NCBI GenBank assembly: GCA_021779935.1
Contig: JAJXZT010000016.1
Span: 1-64,000, forward strand
DNA: 64,000 nt
Direction: 5' to 3'
DNA from: Acidobacteriota bacterium
GTDB taxonomy: Bacteria; Acidobacteriota; Terriglobia; Terriglobales; Acidobacteriaceae
The notes below the pieces were generated by a model. The model had not been told where the DNA came from, ran no database searches, and saw nothing but the letters and a program-made list of their open reading frames with translations. Each line of letters begins with the position of its first letter. The first letter of the stretch is position 1. Shown here piece by piece: positions 7,488-27,896 of the stretch. Made by a program: the position numbers and the translations under genes.

Positions 7488-8030
7488 TCAGAACATATGT
7501 GAAACCGTACTGGCGTCCGAAGGAAATCGCCGCCTGACGAAATATCCGGCGCGCGCCGAAAGTCCCATGTAATCTTCCGCAATCGGCGACCCGGCAGGTG
7601 TCTGCCAGGGAAACAACGCGCACCAGTAAATCCGCAACAGGGCCGAGAGCGCCTGCATACGGAGTTGCAGGGCGTCTCGCGCCAGCGTGTTTGCCGCCGC
7701 CGCTATTTCCGGGTCGTCGTTCTGCAGGTTGGCCTCGGCCATGCTCATCATTACCGACGCGTTGCGTGCCACCGCCAGGACATATTGCGCTGCCGCAAGC
7801 TGGCGGCTGCGCTGTACCCGGCGGAAGCTCCGCGCAGACAGGCTCCGGCGCAGAAATGCCGATTCCGTGGGGCTCATCAGGTTGCGGAATCCGGCCACGT
7901 CGACAGGTACAAAGAGCGATGTAATGTCAGCGGGTGTCCTCACCTCTGGTTTATTTCCGCGTACCGCGCGCAGCAGGAAGAACAACGCTCCGCCAAGCGC
8001 AATCGCGATCAATATCAGCGAAGGGATCAA
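7488..8030 (-). CDS. Hypothetical single-TM membrane-anchored protein (TTG start)
   Basis: 180 residues if started at TTG 8030, which I choose because AGGAG lies about 6 bases upstream and the product then begins with one clean TM helix (LILIAIALGGALFFLL). ATG starts further upstream would add sequence that looks non-coding. The cytoplasmic part is helical and arginine-rich (FLRRSLSARSFRRVQRSRQLAAAQYVLAVARN). Its function is unknown. It precedes the deacetylase-like gene on the same strand by about 150 bases. Confidence 0.65.
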   Translation of the reverse strand: MIPSLILIAIALGGALFFLLRAVRGNKPEVRTPADITSLFVPVDVAGFRNLMSPTESAFLRRSLSARSFRRVQRSRQLAAAQYVLAVARNASVMMSMAEANLQNDDPEIAAAANTLARDALQLRMQALSALLRIYWCALFPWQTPAGSPIAEDYMGLSARAGYFVRRRFPSDASTVSHMF

Positions 8031-8246
8031 TGCCGGCTCCTGATATTTACATATATAAATAAATGACGGCGTCCGATGCCATTCCGCTAAAGCATAATCG
8101 GGATCGCCCGCCCTGCCAAGAACGGAGTCTCGATTTCGCGGAAAGTATGTTGCCCGGGAGTGCATGTCCCGCCAGCCATTGTCTCCGCTTCCAGTTCGTG
8201 GTATTTTCCGCCTGGGCCTTGTGTTTGTGACTGTGTTTATAAACTC

Positions 8247-8675
8247 ATGCCGGTGATGACCCTGTTGCACCCGATGGAAGACTTCTCGAAGCGGACGCTC
8301 GCTTCGATAGCGGGCGGTCTGCCCAGGATGTTGTATCTCTCCAGCCTGCGTGGCGACGACGGCGAGTATCTGCATTGGGGCATGGAGCGCATCTACGGCA
8401 AGCCGGCAACCAGCGATGCCATTGCCGCTTGTCATTTGCAGGTTCTGCGCGACACTCTGCGGACGCCGCTAGGCGAGCTGCTGGCGGAATTGCTGACCAT
8501 CGCCGGAACCGCCGAAGTCGCGGAGAGCGCACTCGCTGACATGCGCGCAAACCTGCCGAAACTCATTCCCCCCGCGGCTCCCAGGCTTATGCATGCTCAC
8601 TTTAGTTCAGTGCTTGTTTCGTTGGGCGCGTTGATCCACGCGGCGCCGCGGGACTCCACTCCCCAAGCCGCATAG
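8247..8675 (+). CDS. Conserved-looking hypothetical protein overlapping a convergent regulator gene
   Basis: 142 residues from ATG 8247 (MPVMTLLHPMEDFSKRTL); no strong SD is visible, so the ATG at 8256 is also possible. Codon third positions are G/C-rich as in real genes here. The protein is soluble and mostly helical, with LYLSSLRGDDGEYLHWGMER and a C-terminal HAHFSSVLVSLGALI pattern. I have the impression of a small acidobacterial family found next to XRE regulators, but I cannot confirm it. Its last 74 bases overlap the end of the minus-strand XRE gene. Confidence 0.65.
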   Translation: MPVMTLLHPMEDFSKRTLASIAGGLPRMLYLSSLRGDDGEYLHWGMERIYGKPATSDAIAACHLQVLRDTLRTPLGELLAELLTIAGTAEVAESALADMRANLPKLIPPAAPRLMHAHFSSVLVSLGALIHAAPRDSTPQAA

Positions 8676-9411
8676 CGATCGCCACCACCTGCCCGAGTAT
8701 CTCCGCGTCCTGGCCGTGCCTCAGCATGCGCGGCTGTACCGGGGAAAGTGGATGCGGCTGCAGGACCAGCAAATCGCCCTGCAATGAACACCAGCAGCAC
8801 ACGAAGCCATCCCTCAACTCCACAAAGTAGACCGGCCGCTCAAACTCGGAGCGCCAGACTCCCTCCTGTACACGGTTGCGCGATTCGTCAATCTGGACGA
8901 ACGAACCTGGCAACAGCAGCGGGTACATCGTGAAATCCTCGCTCCCGATATAGCCGTAGGCAAACTTCTCCGGTGACAGCGCCGCCAGGTGGGCCAGTGG
9001 TACAACGCCCCACTTCTGCACCATCCTGCCCATGTTCGTCGTCTTTTTCTGATCGAAACCTGGATCCAGCGAAACCGGAACCTCGCTGCTGTTCAGGCCC
9101 AGCAGGGCATCTGACATGTGTGACTTGGGCGGTTCAGCCAGGTGCAGGTCCGCCACCGTCTGGTTCACGTCCACGCCGAACCACAAAAGCATTTCGCGAA
9201 CATCGCGCCGGTAAATCACGCTCAGTGAATACAAGCGGTATATGCTCGGAATTACGTTCTTCGTTTCGATGTCGGAGAGCCGGCTGAGAGGTATGGCAAA
9301 ATCGTCGTTATGGTGTTTTGCCGCTACCCTCAGACTTGCGGCTTCCACATCCCGTATCGTGTAGCCAAGCTGCTCACGAAGCTGCCGAAGTCTTTGCCCT
9401 GCGTTAATCAC
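8602..9411 (-). CDS. XRE-family regulator with S24-like C-terminal domain
   Basis: 269 residues. An N-terminal helix-turn-helix (GQRLRQLREQLGYTIRDVEAAS, then IPLSRLSDIETKNVIPSIYRL) is followed by a linker and a beta-rich C-terminal part (LLLPGSFVQIDESRN, VYFVELRDGFVCCWCSLQG) resembling the LexA/CI-type S24 fold. I do not see the Ser-Lys dyad clearly, so it may be a non-cleaving relative. Candidate operator dyads lie upstream at 9553-9567 and 9595-9619. The gene overlaps its convergent neighbour by 74 bases. Confidence 0.85.
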   Translation of the reverse strand: MINAGQRLRQLREQLGYTIRDVEAASLRVAAKHHNDDFAIPLSRLSDIETKNVIPSIYRLYSLSVIYRRDVREMLLWFGVDVNQTVADLHLAEPPKSHMSDALLGLNSSEVPVSLDPGFDQKKTTNMGRMVQKWGVVPLAHLAALSPEKFAYGYIGSEDFTMYPLLLPGSFVQIDESRNRVQEGVWRSEFERPVYFVELRDGFVCCWCSLQGDLLVLQPHPLSPVQPRMLRHGQDAEILGQVVAIAMRLGEWSPAAPRGSTRPTKQALN

Positions 9412-22584: not shown

Positions 22585-23460
22585 CTATCTTCTGTACACC
22601 ACTTTCAGGCTTTCCGCATTCAGCAGTTTTCTGATCTGGCTTTTTGCATGGACGGCCCATGCGCCATTCGCGTCCAGCCGCACATAAGCCTTCCAGTGGT
22701 AGAGAGCCTTGCGCGGTTCTTTCTTGCGTTCATATGCCAGTGCCAGGTTGTAATGCGCGTCGGCGTACGTGGGGGCCAGCGCCACCGCCGCCCGGTATGC
22801 CCGGATCGCCTCGTCCACGCGTTCCGTTTCGTCCAGCACGTTTCCCAGGTCGAAGTACGCCAGCGCGTAGCGGTCATCGCACTCGATGGCTCCGCGATAA
22901 TGTTTCTCCGCCAGCGCGTAGTCACCCTGGTTGTAGTAGAGCGTGCCCAGGTTGATGTGTGCCGGTGCGTAGCGCGGGTCCAGCGTCAGAACTTTCTCGT
23001 ATGCCGCAATCGCCTCATAGGCCGTTGCCGGGTCGTCTTCCAGCATGATCCCGCGCGCAAAAAATTCTGCTGCCGTTTCCGTCAGCGCGATCGCCTTTAC
23101 GTTTCCGGCCTCCACCACGGTGCCCGTCTCCGCAAAGTCCATCACAAACTGCCCGTTGATCGGATCCACGGCGCGCCCTTCGTGACGGTAAGCCACGCGC
23201 GAGCCCACGGAGAACGTTCCCGCCTCAATCAGCGGATTCTCCATGCCGCTCACCTGCCGTTGCATTGCCTGCAGCGACTGGCGAATCACCGCTGACCGTA
23301 CACGCTTGGCACGCAGGTCGCGAACTTTCTTTAATTGCAGGAGATCGAAAAACGAAAAGGACTCGCCAACAGCAACCAGGCCGGCCCGCTGCCAGCCACT
23401 CAGTTGCCGCGGGGAAATGCGAAGGATCCGCAGTACGTCCGTTCGGTTAAATAGGGTCAC
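22585..23460 (-). CDS. MerR-type HTH domain fused to TPR repeats
   Basis: 291 residues. The N-terminal ~70 residues (LFNRTDVLRILRISPRQLSGWQRAGLV then YFSFFDLLQLKKVRDLRAKRV-like) form a MerR-type winged helix. A middle region (residues ~75-130) has no clear family. Four TPR units follow from ~150 (AYEKVLTLDPRYAPAHINLG, HYRGAIECDDRYALAYFDLG, AYRAAVALAPTYADAHYNLA). It is probably a DNA-binding regulator that senses a protein partner rather than a small ligand. Confidence 0.85.
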   Translation of the reverse strand: MTLFNRTDVLRILRISPRQLSGWQRAGLVAVGESFSFFDLLQLKKVRDLRAKRVRSAVIRQSLQAMQRQVSGMENPLIEAGTFSVGSRVAYRHEGRAVDPINGQFVMDFAETGTVVEAGNVKAIALTETAAEFFARGIMLEDDPATAYEAIAAYEKVLTLDPRYAPAHINLGTLYYNQGDYALAEKHYRGAIECDDRYALAYFDLGNVLDETERVDEAIRAYRAAVALAPTYADAHYNLALAYERKKEPRKALYHWKAYVRLDANGAWAVHAKSQIRKLLNAESLKVVYRR

Positions 23461-24023: not shown

Positions 24024-24099
24024 GCCGAAGTAGCTCAGTTGGTAGAGCAGCCGATTCGTAATCGGCAGGTCACCGGTTCAAGTCCGGTCTTCGGCTCCA
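24024..24099 (+). tRNA. tRNA-Thr (anticodon CGT)
   Basis: 76 bases including an encoded CCA. The acceptor arms GCCGAAG and CTTCGGC pair perfectly. A standard D arm (AGCTCAGTTGGTAGAGC) is followed by anticodon stem GCCGA/TCGGC around TTCGTAA, giving anticodon CGT for codon ACG. The T arm ACCGGTTCAAGTCCGGT is intact. A terminator follows 15 bases later. Confidence 0.97.
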
Positions 24100-24169: not shown

Positions 24170-24212
24170 TTTACCTAACACCTAGCACCTAGCACCTAAC
24201 ACCTAGTACCTG
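24170..24212. repeat. CCTAGCACCTAG tandem short-word repeat
   Basis: Six iterations of a 7-base word of the type CCTAGTA/CCTAGCA/CCTAACA. Related arrays occur at about 19430-19456, 30310-30331 and 32279-32310, always between genes. Confidence 0.75.
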
Positions 24213-24225
24213 TCGAAACAGCAAA

Positions 24226-24243
24226 GCCGCCCATGCAGGCGGC
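24226..24243 (-). terminator. Terminator of the small-peptide/7-TM operon
   Basis: On the minus strand GCCGCC and GGCGGC form a hairpin with a 6-base loop, followed by TTTGCTGTTT, about 30 bases after the stop of the last gene (24275). Confidence 0.7.
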
Positions 24244-24274
24244 TCGCGCTTGTTGAGTCTCATCCACCGCGGAT

Positions 24275-24478
24275 TTATCCGCTTTTCCGTCGTGGCATTT
24301 CTTTCGTGTTTTCCGCTCGCATCATCAACTGGTCCAGCTCATTGAGATACTTCTGCAGACGGTCGATTTCTTCCTCGACCTTGTTTTTCTGCGCACGCAG
24401 AAATTCCAGGGCTTGTACACGCTTCTCGTTGATCTCGAATGAATCCATAAATCTGCCGTTTGATTCCGCGAGTTCCAT
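24275..24478 (-). CDS. Small coiled-coil protein
   Basis: 67 residues with a continuous heptad pattern over residues 15-57 (KRVQALEFLRAQKNKVEEEI, DRLQKYLNELDQLMM) and a basic C-terminus. Its ATG overlaps the upstream stop by one base (TAATG), so it is translationally coupled to the 138-residue protein. No family is recognised; an adaptor or partner-binding role is likely from the coiled coil. Confidence 0.7.
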   Translation of the reverse strand: MELAESNGRFMDSFEINEKRVQALEFLRAQKNKVEEEIDRLQKYLNELDQLMMRAENTKEMPRRKSG

Positions 24479-24894
24479 TAGCTGTGCTGAGTAGCCGCGT
24501 CAAACCAGTCCAGTAGGAATGGATTCTGCAGCCCGCAAATCGCCCGGCAGTTGCGGACGATATCTTCATACCGGTCCAGCAGGATACGTATATGCTCTCC
24601 CGGTTCCTGCCGCATAAACGTCAGTGTGCGCGCCATCTGCACCTTGCGCAGACAATGCACCATCTCCAGCGCCGCCTTGCGGATCTCCAGCCCATCCTGG
24701 AGCAGCTCCGGGTTGTGCTCGCCGTGGCACACGTCGGCCACAATCGCTGAAAACAGTAAAGCCGCTTCGCAGAAGCGTTCTACTTTTTGCAGGTCTTCGC
24801 GCGTATATCTTCCTCCGCGCAACGTGCTCACGGGGATCGTCTGGAACTCCCGGCTCAGCGCGGCCAACTGCTCAAGGATTCTATCTTCCGTCAT
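24478..24894 (-). CDS. Hypothetical helical protein
   Basis: 138 residues, soluble and all-helical by pattern (LEQLAALSREFQTI, CEAALLFSAIVADVCHGEHN, LRKVQMARTLTFMRQE). One His/Cys patch (VCHGEH) could bind metal, but that is weak. It lies 31 bases after the 7-TM gene and overlaps the next gene by one base, as the third member of a four-gene operon. Its function is unknown. Confidence 0.65.
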   Translation of the reverse strand: MTEDRILEQLAALSREFQTIPVSTLRGGRYTREDLQKVERFCEAALLFSAIVADVCHGEHNPELLQDGLEIRKAALEMVHCLRKVQMARTLTFMRQEPGEHIRILLDRYEDIVRNCRAICGLQNPFLLDWFDAATQHS

Positions 24895-24925
24895 GGGCTA
24901 CCTCGATCCTTTGCAGGCGAACATC

Positions 24926-25738
24926 TTAGTCGCCTTGATGTTCGCTACTTTCCGCATACGCCATCCGATGTACGGCCGTCAGCATGTATCCCACTGCCGA
25001 TCTCGCGTCGTCCTGCACTTGCCGGATCGCCGCCAGCACCTTGTCGGACGGCTCCGTCCGCTCCGCTTCCTGCCGCAGGAAGTACCCAATCCAGACTACT
25101 TCCGCAATCAGAAACGCAACTTGCGAGAGCACGTAAATAGTAGGCACCCACTCCGGCCTGCTGACCGCAATCACCGCGCTCACCGTCAGATCCACGGAAT
25201 TCATAAACATGAATCCCGCCGCGATTCCGAATGTCTGTCTCCGCCACGGTACCCCGAAGTATCGGGCAAACAAAACCACGAACGCGAACGCGACAGCGGT
25301 CGCGAACGTCGTGCTGCGGTCCATCGTCAGAATGAGGTTCGATATTGCGTGAGGATTTGTGCTGGGCATCCAGAGTCCAACAGCGGCGCTGAGCGAAACG
25401 ATGGCGGCCAGAACGTAGATGAATACGGTCCCGGCGTGTTTCGGCAGTGTCCATAGAGGCATGAACAGGTCTGTAAAGACCTCATAGATCACCCCTGCCA
25501 TGAGCATGGTCCCTAGCGCGGTTCCCGTCCAGTAGAGGTAATAATAGGCATCCGACCTCGTTCCAAGCGTAAGGCTGGTAGCGATCAACGCGCCTGAACG
25601 GACGCACGAGAATACCAAAAACCCACTGAACAATGGGAAACGGCTTCGGTTGGATGGGCGCAACAAAAGCAGCGCTGCCCATACCTCCCCCACTACCGCA
25701 ATTATCCACACGATATTTGTGATTTGTGAAACGGTCAT
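24926..25738 (-). CDS. Seven-TM membrane protein of unknown function
   Basis: 270 residues with about seven hydrophobic segments between residues 5 and 220 (TNIVWIIAVVGEVWAALLLL, TFATAVAFAFVVLFARYFGV, IYVLSQVAFLIAEVVWIGYF) and a ~50-residue charged cytoplasmic tail. I have the impression of an acidobacterial family, but no sensor or transporter motif is visible. A 54-residue secreted peptide is encoded 49 bases upstream on the same strand. Confidence 0.75.
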   Translation of the reverse strand: MTVSQITNIVWIIAVVGEVWAALLLLRPSNRSRFPLFSGFLVFSCVRSGALIATSLTLGTRSDAYYYLYWTGTALGTMLMAGVIYEVFTDLFMPLWTLPKHAGTVFIYVLAAIVSLSAAVGLWMPSTNPHAISNLILTMDRSTTFATAVAFAFVVLFARYFGVPWRRQTFGIAAGFMFMNSVDLTVSAVIAVSRPEWVPTIYVLSQVAFLIAEVVWIGYFLRQEAERTEPSDKVLAAIRQVQDDARSAVGYMLTAVHRMAYAESSEHQGD

Positions 25739-25787
25739 AGGCCACCCCCATTATCGACTGGCTGATGGCCTCTAGACCGGCCACCAG

Positions 25788-25952
25788 CTACTTCGTCATC
25801 GGCGGGATCGGATCGGGTCCGTTGGTCGTATCGTACGCCGTCGCCGAAACTGTTGTACTCGTGTGCAGAGCCGTGTTCGAAGTCGTGAAGCGAGGACCGA
25901 AGGCAGCATAACCAAGGGCAAGAGTCAGGGAAAGCCACAGAACGAAGCGCAT
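25788..25952 (-). CDS. 54-residue secreted peptide
   Basis: A short frame from ATG 25952 to TAG 25788 with AAGGAG 7 bases upstream. Residues 1-18 (MRFVLWLSLTLALGYAAF) make a signal peptide or N-terminal anchor. The rest is polar, rich in Thr/Ser and Pro, without Cys (TSTTVSATAYDTTNG, ending DPIPPMTK). First gene of a minus-strand operon with the 7-TM protein and two small proteins. It could be an exported peptide ligand or an accessory subunit; both are inference. Confidence 0.65.
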   Translation of the reverse strand: MRFVLWLSLTLALGYAAFGPRFTTSNTALHTSTTVSATAYDTTNGPDPIPPMTK

Positions 25953-26195
25953 TGTATCTCCTTGTAGGCAGCATTTGGCTGCCAGAGGAGATTACATCAA
26001 CATGCATAGCTCCGCCATCTGCGTCAATACCTTGTACGCAAAGCGCCATGGTTCACTCTCCGGTTTCGCACAACTCCCCGAGTTTTCAGCAGCTTACAAC
26101 AAAATCGCTTTTCATGCCAATCTGAAACTACGGCTTACATTTGTTTTGATTTTGGAACAAGCCGCACTTCCAGCCATGAAAATGCCTTTAGCTGA

Positions 26196-27896
26196 TCATC
26201 GGACAGTCGTCACTGCAAGCATCACTTCCGCTAGTTCGTCCCCCAAATGCTCTTGCACATCCAAGGCAATCGCAAATGCCACGTCTTCGCTTCTCGTCCC
26301 TTGCTCAGCCTTTTGCAGGGAACAACGGTAACCTTCCAACTCTATGAATCGCCCAGCTCCGTCCAGGGTCCGCGCACGCATTGCGATTCCCCATGCCACG
26401 TTTGTCATCGCCAATAATGCCAGGCTCCAGCCAAACAGTGCTGAAGACCCAAGACTCACTCTGTAACCGACGTATCCGGCAGCACCCACAAAAACCGGCA
26501 GCACTACCAGCCCCGGCCATGCCGAACGCACCTTTAGTCTCCGGTCGAGAACGTCCGTCGTCAAGGGTACGATGGTCACCGCCAGTACCGCCCCAAGCAA
26601 CAGGCTAAATGTAAGAAACCAAAAGGACAAGAGCCATGGGCTTCCGGTTGTCCGGTACTCGGACGCCATCCACACCCCTGCTGCCACGGAGCCGAGTGAC
26701 CCCGCCACCAGGTATTTCGTGTTCCAGTGGAAGTACCGTGCTCCTACCCGGGCGGTCAACGTTTGTTGGACCCCAAGCACCATGTCCGAAAGTAATTGCC
26801 TGTCGTCTTTTCGCACTACCCGTTCGGCCATGCTCGCCGGCAGCAATTTTGTATAGACGAATTTCTCCTCCGGAGGAAGGTCGTCGCCCAGTGCTCGCAG
26901 TCGCCGCACCGTGCACTCGTCTTTTGTGCACTGCACGCTGACGTACCCGCGCGCTGCCAGGTCCACCAATGCGCTTGCCACGCTCTTGCGGTCACTTCCT
27001 CCCGTCCGCAGGTAGCGCGCCTCCGCCGGGGACATCCCGCGCGGCGCCTCGTTTTGTAGAGCCAGCGCTCGCAGTTTGGGATTTCGTGCTTTCGCCACCC
27101 AAACCACCAGGTAATAGCAGAACGCCCCAAGCGGAAGCCAAAGTGGTGACAGTCGTCGCTCAATCGCCGGGCGTGGTAGCGCCACATAACCCTGCGGCCA
27201 CTCCACCACCACCGCCAGACTTTCGCCCGCCGCCAGGCCGTGCGCCGTATAGGTCATCGTGTTGGCCGCGCCGTCCACTCGCTGCGGTTTGCCCGCCGCC
27301 AGTCTTACGCCCCGTTTGTCCAGGTACGCGTTCGCCGTCACGTCTTTCCACGGGAGATTCTCAGGCAGGCGCACTGCCACCGTTGCCGACTCCACCGGCA
27401 ATCCCCATTCATGTCCCACCGCGTTCCAGTACAGTGCGTCTTTGTCCGTTCCGTCTCGCGCAACATTCACCGCGCCCGTCACGCGATAACGAAGTTCATA
27501 CGTCCAGTCGCCCTCGGGCAACGGTTTTCCCAACTCCACGCGAGTGGCTTCTCCGTTTACTTCCGCTGTTGTCTCGATCGGCTTTCCATTCAGCCGCGCG
27601 CTCAGCAACTCCGCCTTCGCTCCTTCGTCATCCGACGCTCTTGTGTAGCGCGAATCCCATCGGTCTTCCGTTCCCACTGGAAGAAAGCGATACGTGTCGT
27701 AGTGGAAATATCGTCCCTCGCTGTGAATTTGGAATTGCTCATTCACCAGCAGCGATCCGTCCTGTTGCACCGTCACGTCCGCATGGAATCTATCGATGCG
27801 CTCTCCCGTGCTGGCCTGTCCCAGCAGTGCCGCGCTGCACAGCAGCACCGCCGCCAACACCGTCGCTTTGCCCTTTGCCGCCACGAATCCTCGCAT
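26196..27896 (-). CDS. DUF2207-family membrane protein
   Basis: 566 residues. A signal peptide (residues 1-29) is followed by a ~215-residue extracytoplasmic beta-rich domain (FHADVTVQQDGSLLVNEQFQI, YRFLPVG) typical of DUF2207. Next come a TM helix (LWLPLGAFCYYLVVWVA), a cytoplasmic wedge-like domain (MSPAEARYLRTGG, ASALVDLAARGYVSV) and two or more TM helices, ending in a soluble tail that repeats the DUF2207 C-terminal pattern. Its role is unknown; it may sense or stabilise the envelope. Confidence 0.88.
   Translation of the reverse strand: MRGFVAAKGKATVLAAVLLCSAALLGQASTGERIDRFHADVTVQQDGSLLVNEQFQIHSEGRYFHYDTYRFLPVGTEDRWDSRYTRASDDEGAKAELLSARLNGKPIETTAEVNGEATRVELGKPLPEGDWTYELRYRVTGAVNVARDGTDKDALYWNAVGHEWGLPVESATVAVRLPENLPWKDVTANAYLDKRGVRLAAGKPQRVDGAANTMTYTAHGLAAGESLAVVVEWPQGYVALPRPAIERRLSPLWLPLGAFCYYLVVWVAKARNPKLRALALQNEAPRGMSPAEARYLRTGGSDRKSVASALVDLAARGYVSVQCTKDECTVRRLRALGDDLPPEEKFVYTKLLPASMAERVVRKDDRQLLSDMVLGVQQTLTARVGARYFHWNTKYLVAGSLGSVAAGVWMASEYRTTGSPWLLSFWFLTFSLLLGAVLAVTIVPLTTDVLDRRLKVRSAWPGLVVLPVFVGAAGYVGYRVSLGSSALFGWSLALLAMTNVAWGIAMRARTLDGAGRFIELEGYRCSLQKAEQGTRSEDVAFAIALDVQEHLGDELAEVMLAVTTVR

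Follow-up and report, generated by a model that had tools for sequence, protein, structure and literature searches.

In the Gram-positive Agr, Com, Rgg/SHP and PlcR/PapR systems, a small secreted peptide is encoded beside a membrane or XRE-type partner. In Agr, this partner includes AgrB, a membrane processing protein paired with the precursor AgrD. Fungal alpha-factor is made from a multi-repeat precursor. The acidobacteria are diderm hosts, as opposed to the Gram-positive hosts of quorum sensing, and the literature listings and abstract openings covered here contain no described peptide signaling for this phylum. They also contain no description of the system reported below, with preprints and many subscription papers lying outside that coverage. 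The locus under study is part of a 64,000-nucleotide stretch of an Acidobacteriaceae genome (hereafter the window). It is one divergent copy of a set of genes, present in many acidobacteria of soil, that pairs a small secreted peptide with a seven-transmembrane (7-TM) protein. That this conserved system is real is close to certain, and the peptide/7-TM gene sets look like an undescribed peptide-signaling system.

The locus consists of four genes on the minus strand. The first (25788–25952) encodes a secreted-peptide precursor of 54 amino acids, which has a Sec-type signal peptide with a hydrophobic N-terminus and a Pro-rich C-terminus (NGPDPIPPMTK), and lacks the Cys pair typical of most relatives. 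Its Shine-Dalgarno (SD) sequence, AAGGAG, is found at 25958–25963, five bases ahead of the ATG. The second gene (24926–25738) encodes a 7-TM protein of 270 amino acids with a predicted N-out/C-in, receptor-like topology and a cytoplasmic C-terminal helix (residues 232–268). After a spacing of 31 bases follows a companion gene for a 138-aa protein (24478–24894), which shares one base with a coiled-coil-like companion gene for a 67-aa protein (24275–24478), and a terminator-like hairpin lies 3' of the latter (24224–24245, minus strand). The four genes, the gap, the overlap, the terminator and the SD-led start of a gene with a signal peptide had been noted in the preliminary description and are present where it placed them. 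Its statement that none of the proteins belongs to a family that can be named also holds, as all four fall below the Pfam and NCBIfam cut-offs and have weak matches only in PHROGs, a database that gives no cut-offs (best E 0.0019, for the 67-aa protein). The locus is single-copy within its own 4.49-Mb genome.

The two companion genes have a different status from the first two. The 138-aa gene is present in one of 41 genomes, which is its own. It was considered as a member of the family that usually occupies the third position in this system (see below), and this candidacy was rejected: the hhalign probability was 99.4% with the gene itself in the alignment and 1.2% without it, and the third-gene HMM gave 1.5 bits, which ranked 552 of 3,001 against 3,000 shuffles of its own sequence. 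Homology to the usual third gene is thus unsupported. The 67-aa protein has a YicC-like C-terminal Pfam match of 23.5 bits, under the cut-off of 27, and tblastn over the loci of relatives found nothing better than E 0.70 and no convincing relative. Because these two genes are not demonstrably part of the conserved system, the four-gene module proposed at first is better described as a pair of genes to which two local companions are attached; the genes for the peptide and the 7-TM protein belong to a widespread system and are syntenic elsewhere, whereas the set of four is not conserved as a unit. The 138-aa and 67-aa genes may conceivably stand in locally for the third gene. The surroundings include a gene for a DUF2207 membrane protein immediately ahead of the peptide gene in the same orientation (26196–27896, minus; Pfam E 4.7e-21), a tRNA-Thr (cgt) gene that converges on the terminator (24024–24099, plus), short GTGCTAGGTGTTAGG-type repeats near this tRNA gene (about 24180–24205), and a gene for a MerR-like HTH fused to TPR repeats (22585–23460, minus; MerR_1 match under the Pfam cut-off).

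With the window 7-TM protein as query, relatives were found in 22 of 41 genomes, namely its own and 21 of the 24 others of its family, and in none of the 16 genomes outside that family. The nearest relatives are about 30% identical to the window protein. A profile built from 37 members matched 44 of 297 genomes across the phylum, of which 33 belong to the window's family, two to another family of the class, and nine, with weaker matches, to lineages elsewhere; among the genomes listed, one of the window's family (G010) had no match, and a further 233 unlisted genomes had none either. The loci with names belong to genome bins of Acidobacteriaceae, Ca. Sulfotelmatobacter and Terriglobales, and one is in a bin labelled Verrucomicrobia that may be misbinned. 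Two further profile matches (L189 and L190; E 1.7e-4 and 5e-4) looked like chance or partial matches, had no peptide, and were excluded from the distant loci. The 7-TM relatives often occur as paralogues, which may be undercounted because eight candidates per genome were scored in most genomes, so that the paralogue counts are lower bounds. The window's genome has four 7-TM matches in all, one of them with an in-frame TGA inside the matched stretch. Judging from these searches, the system is spread through Acidobacteriaceae and more thinly in other Acidobacteriota.

A small gene accompanies the 7-TM gene across this range. Among 40 diverse loci that were read, a short ORF preceded by an SD sequence lies near almost every 7-TM gene; its product starts with a Sec-type signal and has a C-terminus that is rich in Pro and often contains two Cys residues. 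A script found such ORFs in 32 of these 40 paralogues and inspection by hand added three (L059, L066 and L067); four loci (L051, L052, L061 and L068) have no convincing peptide and one at a contig end (L069) could not be judged. Of those 32 peptides, 24 also have a PxP-type motif, and none of 80 opposite-strand regions has an ORF of this kind. Peptides were also present in seven of eight further loci. No peptide was seen at L191 and L218, and L200, where the 7-TM gene is at the contig end, could not be judged. All seven distant loci (L182–L188), which belong to other families within the phylum, have Pro-rich signal-peptide ORFs nearby; these ORFs lack a clear SD in L182, L187 and L188 and lie on the opposite strand in L183, L185 and L188. 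In one genome, eight 7-TM paralogues are each accompanied by a different peptide.

The orthologous loci give a further comparison of this pairing. In 75 of 80 named loci, identified next to a DUF255-type gene, an SD-led signal-peptide ORF lies within 1,000 nt downstream of the 7-TM gene. When the full 1,000-nt stretch was available, the ORF was found in 71 of 75 loci, compared with two of 75 on the opposite strand and four of 482 control tiles. The consensus of 66 aligned orthologues is MKRAxRxxILMVGLVGTYxAAAVPxVPAPDGGPIPxCPPx(n)C, in which the Pro(/Cys) motif is DGGPIPxCPPx(n)C. The median pN/pS of these 66 peptides is 0.55, with 99.7% of 1,075 non-independent pairs below 1, and by this measure the orthologous peptide is under purifying selection. 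In addition, 25 genomes were searched with a profile of 32 peptides, and its 20 best matches (E ≤ 2.1e-8) are all beside 7-TM genes; 18 of these are among the profile's own rows, and the other two represent additional copies. Weaker matches (E 6e-4 to 1) occur away from 7-TM genes. In two family genomes without a 7-TM gene (G002 and G010) and nine sister-family genomes, the profile never gave a match better than E 0.009. The window 54-mer was not retrieved by this profile at E ≤ 1, though it is a row of the alignment, and it is placed in the peptide family by position, SD, signal peptide, Pro core and an operator-like site, not by sequence score. On sequence grounds, the peptide is established as a real, conserved, secreted-type precursor that is tied to the 7-TM gene.

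The composition of the precursors bears on what the peptide does. The mature unit is repeated nine times in the precursor of L067, seven times in L219, six times in L064 and five times in L066; it occurs three times in L057, L182, L199 and L213, and twice in L037, L127 and L170. Other loci have whole peptide genes in tandem, with three copies in L058, six in L215, three in L216 and four in L217 (one L217 copy and one L066 copy contain masked bases). The precursors of L219, L067, L064 and L066 consist almost entirely of five to nine tandem Pro-rich units, and their repeat number may be variable between strains. By analogy with pheromone precursors, such a repeat or tandem layout is how precursors that yield several ligands are built. 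The best reading of the 54-mer and the 7-TM protein is that they form a ligand/receptor-like pair of a peptide-signaling system, with the 7-TM protein as a kinase-less receptor, a reading that we hold, from the sequences, with about even confidence. The multi-copy precursors are the main reason for preferring a ligand over a subunit.

The subunit explanation is the main rival because the hydrophobic segment of the orthologous peptides is better conserved than their tail. Under this explanation, the small protein would remain uncleaved, its hydrophobic segment would be an extra membrane helix, and its Pro-rich tail would regulate a 7-TM transporter, channel or sensor. The first 22 positions have 3.08 bits, compared with 2.56 for the rest. 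As a counterpoint to the ligand reading, the signal/hydrophobic part also has a lower mean distance (0.44) than the mature part (0.63), and this pattern would suit a membrane subunit that stays uncleaved more than a signal that is discarded. The close spacing of the genes in many loci points in the same direction. However, units repeated behind a single signal and whole genes in tandem suit a ligand released in bulk rather than a stoichiometric subunit, and many of the peptides have small residues in AxA order ahead of the mature part. A regulatory subunit is considered unlikely. Co-divergence was also tried as proof of binding and was rejected; the test proves nothing specific, because divergence in step with the outer half of the 7-TM protein is seen for the signal part as well as for the mature part.

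The seven membrane segments assigned to the 270-aa protein in the preliminary description are borne out by an AlphaFold2 model (pLDDT 89.9, pTM 0.81), which has seven membrane-length helices and the C-terminal helix at 232–268. Lys plus Arg residues average 3.4, 1.8 and 1.5 in the inner loops and 0.57, 0.57 and 0.22 in the outer loops, and conservation rises from the outer to the inner quarter of the protein (1.20, 1.40, 1.68 and 1.89 bits). The family is thus predicted to be N-out/C-in with a cytoplasmic C-terminal tail, variable on the outside and conserved on the inside. A Foldseek search of the PDB with the model gave 606 matches at E ≤ 10, with a best E of 5e-3 and none at ≤ 0.001. GPCRs account for 49 of the best 50 among the 606, and the remaining match is a sensory rhodopsin; TM-scores are mostly 0.3–0.5. 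The best 50 VIA rows are all GPCRs or GPCR domains, led by the GPCR part of LYCHOS, with Z of 11.6–13.7, where values under about 13 can reflect a common helical arrangement and absence from the list excludes no fold or GPCR. As these Z values are uncalibrated and can have this cause, the fold is called GPCR-like, not homologous. An hmmsearch of the PDB with the 7-TM profile found no sequence at E ≤ 1.

The same protein could instead handle the peptide, i.e., export, trim, modify or take it up rather than sense it. The one-to-one pairing is compatible with such a role, and other systems pair a precursor with a membrane processing protein, as in the case of AgrB and AgrD. Nevertheless, a catalytic set of Cys, His or Ser residues is not conserved among the 37 members. 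Of the polar positions shared by more than half of them, most are basic loop residues, and those within helices are E86 (95%), R141 (89%), Q147, S158 and E/D183. None of the 37 members has a Pfam family at E ≤ 0.01, and a dedicated exporter is unnecessary because the precursor has a Sec-type signal. These points make a handling role rather improbable. An antimicrobial peptide with a 7-TM immunity protein, or a defense module, is very improbable. The presence next to a membrane protein of a small secreted peptide, in some cases with a Cys pair, speaks for it. The bacteriocin/immunity option raised in the preliminary description is a poor fit, since many genomes have kept the orthologous pair in synteny, with the peptide under purifying selection; moreover, the 25 genomes contain no strong peptide-profile match away from a 7-TM gene, PADLOC has no match for the five proteins checked, and the signals are of the Sec type rather than double-glycine leaders. 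The signaling set that it also proposed is favored for the first two genes by their conserved pairing, purifying selection, pheromone-like multi-copy precursors and receptor-like topology.

Fuller modules of the system contain additional genes. An XRE regulator of one family adjoins the peptide/7-TM pair in 13 of 60 diverse loci (tblastn, 45–63% identity to the XRE protein of the window), and in most of these 13 loci a divergent gene with an EYLHWG motif lies between the XRE and peptide genes on the opposite strand. A third gene, which encodes a membrane-anchored helical protein of 160–190 aa, follows the 7-TM gene. Neither the XRE gene nor the third gene was found in any of the 80 orthologous loci within the flanks covered. 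Against the PDB, the XRE profile matched only the HTH of DdrO chains (E 0.02–0.06), and the third-gene profile matched no sequence at E ≤ 1. Outside the window's family, L185, L187 and L188 have the 7-TM gene followed by a 136–137-aa membrane protein and a shorter, opposite-strand XRE gene, which is a second regulator type for the same system.

The window contains these genes at a distance from the pair. At 7488–9411, a XRE-family regulator of the module type (8602–9411, minus; HTH_19 match below the Pfam cut-off), an EYLHWG-motif gene for a helical protein of 139 aa (8256–8675, plus; no PADLOC match) of the type found between XRE and peptide genes, and a third-gene protein of 180 aa, membrane-anchored and helical, with a TTG start (7488–8030, minus; HMM E 4e-44) are ordered as in complete modules. 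The model of this third-gene protein has a pLDDT of 90.6 and no Foldseek match below E 0.97, and the window's genome has three third-gene matches. The 225-base gap of this set contains no peptide gene and no 7-TM gene, although these two normally precede the third gene, and the set can be read as a copy of the same system that was split or has decayed. In XRE modules, the regions upstream of peptide genes share the motif TTGTTCYAnnTTCCGAA, with GAACA behind it in many cases. When a matrix built on six loci was applied to 29 other upstream regions, 13 scored p < 0.02 and 15 scored p < 0.05 against dinucleotide shuffles; the motif had first been spotted by eye in the same regions, such that the test is held out from the matrix and not from the eye. 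The top site of the whole window (16.3 bits) is an operator-like palindrome, TTGTTCCAAAATCAAAACAA, at 26141–26160, about 190–210 bases upstream of the 54-mer gene; none of 500 dinucleotide shuffles reaches its score. Binding of the XRE regulator to this palindrome is inferred from the sequence. The module seems to be split here, with the regulator, EYLHWG and third genes at 7.5–9.4 kb and the ligand, receptor and operator-like site at 24.9–26.2 kb.

If the ligand/receptor reading is correct, the precursor would be exported by Sec and trimmed, in the periplasm or outside, to a short Pro-rich and often Cys-paired peptide. The mature peptide would bind the variable outer half of the 7-TM bundle, and the signal would pass to the conserved cytoplasmic face and C-tail of the 7-TM protein and then on to the membrane-anchored helical partner encoded by the third gene. 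In fuller modules, the XRE regulator may set ligand and receptor levels by acting on the palindrome that precedes the peptide gene. No histidine kinase was found in the module, by Pfam for the window proteins and by eye for the neighbors in relatives. A broader proposal, offered tentatively and at somewhat less than an even chance, is that acidobacteria have a form of peptide-hormone signaling in which families of cognate Sec-secreted peptides, some of them cut from repeats as yeast alpha-factor is, each act on their own kinase-less 7-TM receptor of a GPCR-like fold, with up to eight pairs per genome and an XRE-controlled operon. Such a system would be a bacterial counterpart of peptide-hormone/7-TM receptor signaling that arose or was retained outside eukaryotes, and its hosts belong to a phylum that is among the most abundant in soil and among the least understood. 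Synthetic versions of the mature peptides would also give acidobacteria a set of ligands to test, and the question of whether the GPCR-like fold has more than one origin would be affected. Should the 7-TM protein have another role than that of a receptor, the conserved system still comprises four protein families with no Pfam family above the cut-off.

Compared with class II bacteriocins, the precursors described here have Sec-type hydrophobic signals instead of a double-glycine leader, and no dedicated ABC exporter was seen by eye in the gene lists of relatives' loci. The Gram-positive peptide quorum-sensing systems resemble the pair in having a small secreted peptide encoded beside a membrane or XRE-type partner, but the module lacks a histidine kinase and an AgrB/ComQ-like gene; XRE genes are present in some loci only, and for Rgg/SHP the corresponding arrangement would be the 13 of 60 diverse loci in which XRE adjoins the pair. 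For AgrB/AgrC partners, Pfam gave no match in the four genes or in the XRE, third and EYLHWG genes, and none was seen by eye among the neighbors in relatives. The 7TMR-DISM and 7TMR-HD proteins are also bacterial 7-TM receptor modules, whereas the present family lacks both a DISM-type domain outside the cytoplasm and a fused output domain, its C-tail being the single helix at 232–268. Sequence relation to known GPCR families is not detected, either for the 37 members against Pfam (E ≤ 0.01) or for the profile against the PDB (E ≤ 1). In structure, class B1 GPCRs (the calcitonin, CGRP, CRF and PTH receptors), which have peptide ligands, provide the best Foldseek rows and many VIA rows, although the window protein, with TM1 from residue 3, has no extracellular hormone-binding domain. 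Finally, the fungal class D GPCR Ste2 differs in that the 7-TM profile has no match to it in the PDB and the bacterial proteins are about 250–310 aa, but it shares the 7-TM N-out/C-in arrangement (chain 7ad3_A, Foldseek rank 33, VIA Z 12.1), and its ligand, alpha-factor, is, like the putative mature products of some acidobacterial loci, a short secreted peptide cut from a repeat precursor.
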